Shown here piece after piece: positions 18,650-23,720 of a DNA stretch of 58,541 nucleotides. Location: positions 1-58,541 of the forward strand of contig LFSH01000038.1 in NCBI GenBank assembly GCA_001513105.1, in the 5' to 3' direction. The stretch is from Clostridiales bacterium DTU070 (lineage in GTDB: Bacteria; Bacillota; Clostridia; DSM-8532). The notes below the pieces were generated by a model. The model did not search any database and was not told where the DNA came from. It saw nothing but the letters and a program-made list of their open reading frames with translations. How positions within the stretch are numbered: the first letter of the stretch is position 1; each line of letters starts with the position of its first letter. Position numbers and translations under genes: made by a program.

Positions 18650-18679
18650 ATCTGGTCCTCCTTCCATATCGTAAATGCT

Positions 18680-19369: not shown

Positions 19370-19681
19370 TTACAGCTTGATTTCAATATCCACACCTGCA
19401 GGAAGATCAAGCCTCATTAAAGCATCAACTGTTTTCGGTGTTGGAACGAGGATGTCAATAAGTCTTTTATGAGTTCTCATTTCAAACTGTTCACGTGAAT
19501 CCTTATACTTGTGCGGAGCACGTAAAATAGTTATTACTTCCTTTTTGGTTGGCAGCGGCACCGGACCTGAAACTTTCGCCCCGGTCCTTTTAGCTGTTTC
19601 AACTATTTTTTCAGCAGATTGATCCAAAACCTGATGATCAAAAGCTTTCAACCTAATACGAATTTTTTGTTTGTTCGCCAT
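19370..19681 (-). CDS. rpsJ: 30S ribosomal protein S10
   Basis: S10 is a head protein and also acts as NusE in transcription antitermination. The 103 residues include [32 protein letters not shown], and the C-terminal signature [15 protein letters not shown]. It is the first gene of the superoperon, with GGAGG before the ATG and a leader of about 345 bases. Confidence 0.98.
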
Positions 19682-20025
19682 ACATATGCCTCCTACTCCA
19701 TGCCTTCAGCAGGGTATCCGGCTGAAAAGCATTTTTTTGTTTGTGCAAGCAGCACTTTTGTGATGACGCAACAAGTTTTTCTCTGTACACTCTGCCGGGT
19801 GTGTCGTAACTGTTAATATATAAAACCCAGGAAAAACAAACAAGTTAATTCTAACTTGCATAACCTGGGCTCTGTAGCAACATACGTTACGCATATACAT
19901 GAATATATGCGCAGATGCAAGATGTACAGTGACTTGTCGCCCGGTTTCAATGAATCGGACATTCTCCATTGAAGTTCCCCGGATATCCGGCAATCTCCAA
20001 CTTCATCGTATGCCATGTCACAACA
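19682..20025 (-). promoter_or_regulatory. S10 operon 5' leader with nested hairpins
   Basis: About 345 transcribed bases separate the S10 promoter from rpsJ and hold no credible gene. Visible inverted repeats are: 19971-20004 (GAAGTT/AACTTC arms enclosing CCGG-ATAT-CCGG); 19890-19911 (8 bp, CGCATATA/TATATGCG); 19826-19869 (CCCAGG/CCTGGG arms enclosing a perfect 7-bp CAAGTTA/TAACTTG stem at 19841-19858, followed on the transcript by TTTTATAT); and 19706-19727 (TTCAGC/GCTGAA) close to the ribosome-binding site. The third looks like a weak intrinsic terminator or attenuator. The short frames over this stretch have no family resemblance. Confidence 0.6.
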
Positions 20026-20031
20026 GGCAAC

Positions 20032-20060
20032 ATTATACTATAGTTTTTTTATCATGACAA
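20032..20060 (-). promoter_or_regulatory. sigma-A promoter of the S10-spc-alpha superoperon
   Basis: On the minus strand TTGTCA (20055-20060) is separated by exactly 17 bases from a consensus TATAAT (20032-20037). Transcription would begin near 20025. It is the only strong promoter seen upstream of rpsJ, in the 566-bp rpsJ-rimI gap. The rest of that gap (20061-20247) is AT-rich and shows nothing I can name. Confidence 0.8.
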
Positions 20061-21970: not shown

Positions 21971-22939
21971 CTATCTTACCGCCCATGGAATAATTTTTTC
22001 GACAGTATAATCCTTTGCTTCATCATCGGTAAGGATCCTGGCCCATGATACCCTTTTGCCGGTTCCTGCACCAGGACCATGGCTTTTATATTCAGCATAA
22101 AAAACAGTCTTTTCGCTTTCGGGCCTGTTCCAGTTATGCCAGCCTTCACTCTTAATATGGCTGTCCATGTAACAGTTTATAAAAACCGTTTTCGCAAAAT
22201 TCCTCCACGGCCTTCCGAGATACACCGTAGAAGGCTTGCAGTTTCCCACGAGTTTGCAGTCAATAAACACATAACCGTATTTCTCGCCTTCGGGGGTTGA
22301 TGCGGCAGTAATATACCCGTTTACGCCATTTTCGGGTTCACCTCTGTCAAGTGATATAATTGTGCAGCCTTTGAAAACCGCCGTAGCCGAGCCGAATATG
22401 AAATCCACATCCCCCTCTATTACGCAGTTCTCGTAATAATGCGCACCCATTCTTCTTTCCCTGTTCTGCCCGGGACCCTTAAATCCGTTTTTTAGGACGG
22501 GTTCGGGCGGAAGTGGTGCTGTAAAAAGAGTATCCTGATGCCCTTTAAAACAGCAGTTCCTGAATATTACACGATCTGCATCCACGTATGCGGCAAGGGC
22601 TTGCCCTTTTATTTTTCCCGGTCCAGCGGAGTTTTCAAAAGTTATATTGCTCGCCTCAAACCCATCGCCTGTGATCAGTACCGTATATGAATTGAAAGTG
22701 CCGTATTCTTCACCGTTATCAAACAGTTTCCTTGCATAATCGTCGTATGTGATGATTGTTGATTCAGGGTCCTCGCCAACCAGTGTAATATTTGGTCTTG
22801 TTATGTGCAGTTTCTCCCTGTACACTCCTTTTTTTAAGTGAATTACGACTCTGCCGTTTTTTTCGCTTTTCTTCTCCAGGTCCTTTAAAGCCTCTCCGAG
22901 CGACAGGTAGTCGCCGCTCCCGTCAGATGCCACAATCAT
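21971..22939 (-). CDS. pectinesterase (carbohydrate esterase family 8), no signal peptide
   Basis: Pectin methylesterases remove methyl esters from homogalacturonan. This 322-residue right-handed beta-helix protein carries the CE8 motifs in order: GQALAAYVDADR, GHQDTLF, DFIFGSATAVF (with the catalytic Asp pair), YITAAS, and LGRPWRNFA. It starts directly at MIVASDGSGDYLSLGEAL, the first beta-strand of the domain, and has no signal peptide, so it appears cytoplasmic and would act on imported oligogalacturonides. It has its own promoter-like sequence and lies between the holin-like gene and tsaE, unlinked to other pectin genes here. Confidence 0.93.
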   Translation of the reverse strand: MIVASDGSGDYLSLGEALKDLEKKSEKNGRVVIHLKKGVYREKLHITRPNITLVGEDPESTIITYDDYARKLFDNGEEYGTFNSYTVLITGDGFEASNITFENSAGPGKIKGQALAAYVDADRVIFRNCCFKGHQDTLFTAPLPPEPVLKNGFKGPGQNRERRMGAHYYENCVIEGDVDFIFGSATAVFKGCTIISLDRGEPENGVNGYITAASTPEGEKYGYVFIDCKLVGNCKPSTVYLGRPWRNFAKTVFINCYMDSHIKSEGWHNWNRPESEKTVFYAEYKSHGPGAGTGKRVSWARILTDDEAKDYTVEKIIPWAVR

Positions 22940-23551: not shown

Positions 23552-23720
23552 AAGCAATCCTCCACTCATTGACTTGTCTAATTTATTATATGCAGGTCCC
23601 GGAAATGTGACAAAATTTTTTTCCAAATGAGCCGGAACAGGTTTTATCGCTCATTCTCGGTTTATTCATACTGGCTGTATCACCGACCATGAAAACCGGT
23701 ATGCCCAAAGATCAATCCAT

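Follow-up and report, generated by a model that had tools for sequence, protein, structure and literature searches.

The S10-operon leader of Clostridia: a catalogued core extended by a predicted long-range helix, a conserved module and an internal terminator, with L4 as candidate ligand

In Escherichia coli, L4 is believed to promote NusA-dependent termination in the leader of the S10 operon and also represses translation (PMC10931766, in the passages on that operon). Among Firmicutes ribosomal protein (r-protein) leaders with an intrinsic terminator, those of Bacillus subtilis for L10(L12)4 and L20 use alternative structures, including an antiterminator in the case of L10 (same source, passages on these leaders). 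A Firmicutes S10 r-leader is also on record; numerous clostridial examples were reported in 2020, with citation of Yao et al. (2007), in a text whose relevant section does not discuss it beyond listing those examples (PMC7247131). The main text of a survey of premature terminators, so far as its accessible part extends, does not name rpsJ (PMC2965389), and the leader section of a Bacillus methanolicus transcriptome study names leaders for L10, L13, L20, L21 and others, with no S10 leader among them (PMC4342826). In Clostridium difficile, the E. coli L4 model is not supported by the data of a proteomics study, according to its own passage on the point (PMC3933415). Many core ribosomal proteins are products of the S10 operon; in the open-licence literature we found neither a test of how Clostridia balance them with rRNA nor an experimental test of a clostridial S10 leader. 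The remark in a first-pass annotation of the present locus, that such a mechanism is not established in Clostridia, therefore holds, as no experimental proof of L4 control was found in the same literature.

The stretch of DNA analysed here (the window) comprises 58,541 nucleotides of Clostridiales bacterium DTU070 (contig LFSH01000038.1). Its S10 operon lies on the minus strand, as do all the features described below, in the order rpsJ, rplC, rplD, rplW, rplB, all of them 3′ of the leader. ORF identification placed rpsJ, encoding S10, at 19681–19370 and rplD, the third operon gene, at 18667–18026; the product of the latter, L4, is the candidate ligand. The first-pass annotation had described a near-consensus promoter, about 345 untranslated bases and four inverted repeats, one of them U-tailed, and all of this was borne out. 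The promoter is of sigma-A type (TTGTCA-17-TATAAT, 20060–20032, 11/12 matches to the consensus), and the leader of 345 nt runs from about 20026, a start inferred from the −10 box, to 19682, with the Shine–Dalgarno (SD) sequence AGGAGG of rpsJ at 19694–19689. Its folding energy was −118.4 kcal/mol, compared with −89.7 (SD 4.9) for 100 dinucleotide shuffles, none of which was as good (z −5.8). The inverted repeats are at 20004–19971, 19912–19890, 19870–19825 (then UUUUAUAU) and 19732–19700. Of these, the U-tailed hairpin proved to be conserved on comparison; it was absent from the list of a simple terminator scan because that scan takes only loops of 3–8. The second repeat, GCGCAUAUA...UAUAUGCG, is predicted by folding of family leaders to be a variable hairpin. 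The fourth, the SD-proximal hairpin AUGCUUUUCAGC...GCUGAAGGCAU, was found by folding and appears lineage-specific: like hairpins were seen by eye in several relatives, with arms that have changed yet are still complementary, and it is seemingly missing in other genera of the window's family.

When the whole window was searched with cmscan at gathering scores, the single match was RF03136, the S10-Clostridia r-leader (20014–19934, 38.2 bits; gathering 35.1), and no other Rfam family was matched. The match covers all 81 positions of the model and lies, like the catalogued family, upstream of the S10 operon; the leader is a member of RF03136 and not a new family. The proposal that it could be a new r-protein autoregulatory RNA thus stands in part, in that the S10-operon leader is conserved and includes an attenuator-like hairpin, but the family had already been catalogued. 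The 81-position model ends at GCGACAA, in a leader of about 345 bases, and contains none of the helix P5, the terminator and the module described below; the attenuator-like hairpin is outside it, yet conserved among relatives. In a comparison of 16 leaders of the window's family, conservation reached well past the RF03136 model. Judged against that model, the conserved structure appears to be about three times larger than the one catalogued, and comparison gives good support for taking the structure outside the model as a feature of the class. Among 32 genomes of the window's family, 30 had rpsJ, and RF03136 was above the cut-off in 4 and at E ≤ 0.001 in 13, in a search run with stricter filters, which lose weak matches; a larger structure would help to explain why only 4/32 exceeded the cut-off. 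In one of the 13 genomes (G028) the match was to an additional rpsJ copy, on a different contig. This copy (L004, C35:1016–1503, on a 4.5 kb contig) is 69% identical, and its S10 leader is of the short form, with a score of 48 bits; it represents either contamination or a true second copy.

For wider comparison, leaders were collected from relatives and the window's family, from 80 named GTDB genomes and from a class-wide sample, the last consisting of 100 stretches from the top of the list among the matches listed (285 genomes with rpsJ), some close relatives having been passed over manually and 14 further new loci added. Of 254 loci, 13 had no rpsJ start, leaving 241 leaders, of which 227 were unique; L120 and L133 serve as examples outside all counts. 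A regular-expression finder recovered only 110/227 cores and was replaced by matrices, whose seeds were chosen by eye (3/17 module seeds were Bacilli-like); all that was kept from it were core-to-start distances for 27 P3-type leaders and the P3 motif in L088 and L091. With the core threshold set at the best of 227 mononucleotide shuffles, 197/227 leaders passed and 30 failed.

The strand that directly follows hairpin P4 (GACAAGUCACUGUACA in the window) is complementary to the strand directly following the module (UGUACAG...CUUGUUGC), which is a segment about 150 bases downstream of the 3′ edge of the core. The two strands of this predicted helix, P5, are GACAAG UCA CUGUACA (19938–19923) and UGUACAG AGAAAAA CUUGUUGC (19789–19768), both delimited by leader comparison. 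From 128 leaders with both anchors, six judged to be mis-anchored (L161, L178, L188, L189, L217 and L241) were dropped by hand before the permutation test, and the resulting 122 gave 72 non-redundant leaders, in which a leader's own strands paired at a mean of −16.49 kcal/mol compared with −12.05 for strands swapped between species (z −13.4, 0/20,000 permutations). Controls gave z −2.3 for the reversed partner, −0.4 for the segment before the module and −1.9 for the segment after it (24 leaders). As a guard against shared ancestry, 55 disjoint pairs of nearest relatives with differing 5′ strands were compared; the native partner won in 35 pairs and lost in 13, with 7 ties (p = 1.5e-5, as against p = 0.09 for the reversed-strand control). 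Complementary replacements could also be seen by eye, for example GACCAU/AUGGUC in L075, GACUU-UAAGAC/GUCUUAAGUC in L240 and AGACU/AGUCU in L064. Taken singly, P5 beat 95% of its own shuffles in 88 of 139 leaders and failed in 51 (the test covered 139/142 downstream-type leaders), and the native partner ranked first of 72 in 12 leaders and within the top five in 31. Covariation across rpsJ leaders, which the first-pass annotation had named as the check on its proposal, is therefore present in both the permutation and the sister-pair tests, and these complementary changes support a long-range helix, predicted from sequence, connecting the base of P4 with the downstream segment.

The module consists of ACACCCGG followed by a GUGU motif and in the window, where it was located with motif matrices, is ACACACCCGGCAGAGUGU, an ACAC/GUGU hairpin at 19804–19787. 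Its stem has 3 nt in common with the inner part of P5 (the first three of the P5 3′ strand), and so the two may never be complete together. A complementary change in the stem, ACAC/GUGU against ACGC/GCGU, was seen by eye in L241. Among the 197 core-bearing leaders the module was downstream of the core, enclosed by P5, in 142, inside the P3 hairpin in 42, at both positions in none and at neither in 13, seven of which had a downstream score just under the threshold. In the window P2/P3 is the core hairpin at 20004–19971, defined by the Rfam alignment and leader comparison; it is the tip of this hairpin that holds the module in Bacilli. One of the 42 P3-type leaders, L086 (Sporomusa), was judged to be spurious, and the other 41 are all Bacilli by name (41/44 Bacilli-named leaders). 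The three Bacilli-named leaders that remain are L088 and L091, which have no core above the threshold and in which the regular-expression finder detected the motif in P3, and L063, a MAG, with the module at neither position. Of the downstream-type leaders, 16 are named, and every one of these names is clostridial. A matrix made from clostridial sites, which is not fully independent because its sites came from the selection of the first matrix, scored a mean of 15.8 bits on Bacilli P3 hairpins against −6.5 for shuffles; the Bacilli P3 module was above all 300 of its own shuffles in 38/41 leaders and had an offset of 3 or 4 within P3 in 41/41, and with the same matrix no P3 loop out of 141 in downstream-type leaders scored above 9 bits.

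The leader of Bacillus inaquosorum (L084) illustrates the Bacilli form. It has the same core (39.1 bits) and the same ACACACCCGG module, but differs from the clostridial form in that the module is in the P3 tip, there is no P5 domain and the SD comes directly after P4. In the Rfam alignment of this Bacillus leader a 5-base loop is replaced by 29 unmodelled bases, which hold most of the module. A variant P3 module, seen by eye and under the threshold, makes L115, a clostridial MAG, a possible intermediate form. It is conceivable, though we put it forward as a tentative and rather doubtful reading, that these are two placements of one movable protein-recognition module, at the P3 tip in Bacilli and at the far end of P5, beyond the terminator, in Clostridia, the clostridial RNA then being a split aptamer. 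The two placements would suggest that the recognition parts of r-leaders can move in evolution.

The P4 hairpin of the window (GUCCG...CGGGC, 19960–19939) can form two registers, GUC:GGC and the UGUC:GACA pairs that are standard in the Rfam alignment. The RF03136 model pairs UGUC:GACA, whereas Bacilli leaders favour GUC:GGC: among P3-type leaders GUC:GGC is possible in 42/42 and GUC:GAC in 16/42, and the GUC...GGC hairpin closes in 41/42. For downstream-type leaders GUC...GGC closes in 120 of the 134 that matched the pattern (8 more did not match), and both registers are possible in these 120, so it is the Bacilli leaders that decide the register question. The Rfam alignment of the B. inaquosorum leader also has mispairs in P4. 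Thus P4 probably adopts the GUC:GGC register, and we take the UGUC:GACA pairing of the model to be in the wrong register. With GUC:GGC, GAC is left free for P5, and there need be no competition between the core and P5. The long-range helix, the probable correction to P4 and the module found in two places provide direct targets for binding and mutagenesis experiments.

Between the P5 5′ strand and the module, downstream of the variable hairpin, the window has the U-tailed hairpin that we interpret as an intrinsic terminator (attenuator), with the stem GCCCAGG...CCUGGGU (19870–19825) and the U-tract UUUUAUAU (19825–19818), the latter assigned by terminator comparison. Terminators were sought in the interval from the P5 strand to the module, in leaders with a long gap (at least 60 bases, 90 leaders) or a short one (less than 60, 52 leaders). 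In long-gap leaders a terminator at −6 kcal/mol or better was found in 75/90 (29/90 when shuffled), and one at −10 kcal/mol or better in 69/90 (13/90 when shuffled). A recount of all 75 terminators, with no distance filter, showed that the distance from stem end to module was 18–22 nt in 71, the exceptions being 16, 50, 84 and 95 nt, although the hairpin itself varied from 16 to 59 bases (72 terminators). The stem base GCCCAGG/CCUGGG is recurrent; the terminators of L012 and L177 have no CCC motif. Within the window's family (30 leaders, two of them cut by contig ends, with the second rpsJ copy of G028 left out) such a hairpin was present in 28/28 core-bearing leaders, always at −10 or better and 19–21 bases from the module. 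These comparisons place a predicted intrinsic terminator between core and module in the long form of the clostridial leader.

A classical attenuator would require a competing structure, in which either a part of the core or CCGGGC, the 3′ strand of P4, acts as antiterminator for the terminator arm GCCCAGG and is released by protein on the core. By eye CCGGGC can indeed pair with GCCC-A-GG in family leaders, with one bulged A. But in a test restricted to terminators 15–24 nt from the module (72/75; 47 non-redundant), a leader's own terminator 5′ arm paired no better than foreign arms with either the core (z −0.9) or P4 plus the A strand (z −1.4), where the positive control reached −16.5, a result that is weak to the extent that the core and P4-plus-A segments are strongly conserved, as nothing can be learned where nothing varies. 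There was likewise no support for pairing between the 5′ arm and the spacer (z +2.5) or between the 3′ arm and the module (z −1.6). A terminator/antiterminator switch of the L10 or L20 type was rejected, as conserved pairing of the 5′ arm with an upstream segment was not found. Together with the terminators of L012 and L177, which do not have the CCC motif that the pairing involves, these results make a classical attenuator quite improbable in our judgement.

Lacking the sign of a switch that distinguishes the B. subtilis L10 and L20 leaders, the clostridial leader is consistent with protein-assisted termination of the E. coli kind, the part of L4 being by analogy. The two share the operon, a long structured leader and a terminator inside it, and the account of the E. 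coli leader in PMC10931766, in the passages concerned, does not mention a P5, a module or a terminator–module spacing. On balance we think it probable that the clostridial long form is an autoregulatory S10-operon leader, with L4 as candidate ligand, that combines protein-assisted attenuation with translational control. An S10-operon protein, most likely L4, would bind the core, and also the module once this is present. When RNA polymerase is near the terminator it would so far have made the core alone and, because only the core is present at this stage, bound protein could favour termination without any competing antiterminator. In transcripts that escape, the module and P5 would be added and the predicted site completed ahead of the ribosome-binding region and its SD, so that excess protein could also repress translation. 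The terminator would thus divide the complete site between an early half and a late one. On the more doubtful split-aptamer reading, the first half could act during transcription and the whole site would exist only in messages that had escaped termination; a single protein could then control the operon at two successive stages, transcription and translation, and the 18–22 nt between terminator and module could set the timing.

The same structures could instead act in translational control only, with core, P5 and module bound in the full-length mRNA and the terminator either trimming transcription constantly or making a small RNA. In Bacilli the core lies close to the start codon (median 33 nt, range 29–52, in 27 P3-type leaders) and the SD follows so soon after P4 that a terminator could not be accommodated, an arrangement that agrees with control at translation alone. 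In short-gap clostridial leaders a terminator at −6 was found in only 4/52, so that the other 48 carry the module with none at this threshold, and attenuation is therefore not general. A wider scan, meant to reveal terminators that the A strand of a short-gap leader might conceal, gave 11/52 at −6 against 3.4 expected, and the idea was set aside as this excess is weak. However, the conservation of the long-gap terminator, its near-fixed distance from the module and the recurrent GCCCAGG/CCUGGG base exceed what an unregulated stop would need, and we consider control by translation only to be unlikely for the long form. It is highly unlikely that the leader is simply a structured 5′ UTR for protection or processing of the mRNA, with no feedback control, given the long-range covariation and a class-wide module that, though differently placed in Bacilli, is always upstream of rpsJ in the leaders compared. 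A U-rich run 14–20 nt before the module was also noticed, at an unchanged distance, in short-gap leaders with no terminator hairpin (43 leaders), where it is perhaps a structural linker.

Within the preferred reading, protein-assisted attenuation together with translational control, the most likely ligand is L4, the product of the third operon gene, a choice made solely from operon content and analogy. The genes of other r-proteins are also downstream of the leader, and the confidence of ligand predictions is said to vary greatly (PMC7247131, in its discussion of such predictions), so another operon product (S10, L3, L23, L2 or a later one), or something other than an r-protein, is possible but less probable as ligand. 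Against this, the E. coli S10 operon is regulated by L4 (PMC10931766, passages on that operon), and precedent of this type is described as the best method currently known (PMC7247131, same discussion).

Resemblance to rRNA was assessed by primary sequence against the 23S and 16S loci of a relative from the same genus, where the core and module matched no better than shuffles (p 0.28–0.85; against 23S, p = 0.30 for the core and p = 0.85 for the module). By eye, 13 bases of P4 look like part of the 23S sequence (GAAACCGGGYGAC), although Bacilli do not have them; by our own estimate chance can yield such a resemblance at this search size, and we regard it only as a lead. The window's own assembly, for which a completeness of 99.95% is stated, had no 16S or 23S rRNA that could be found. 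A further candidate helix, P1, in which the 5′ end GUGAC would pair with GUCAC of the P5 strand, was rejected: it gave z +0.7 in 88 leaders across the class, with a reversed-strand control of z −3.7 indicating that composition alone can move the statistic, and the pairing was constant in near relatives.

The genes directly upstream of the S10 operon in the window are rimI, for an N-acetyltransferase, and the t6A genes tsaB and tsaE (21849–20248); unlike this neighbourhood, several other leaders follow, by eye, the end of an apparent EF-Tu gene. An ORF at 22939–21971 is pectinesterase-like and adjoins another, at 23626–23093, that reads as a small holin-type membrane protein, both assignments being readings of the translation only.
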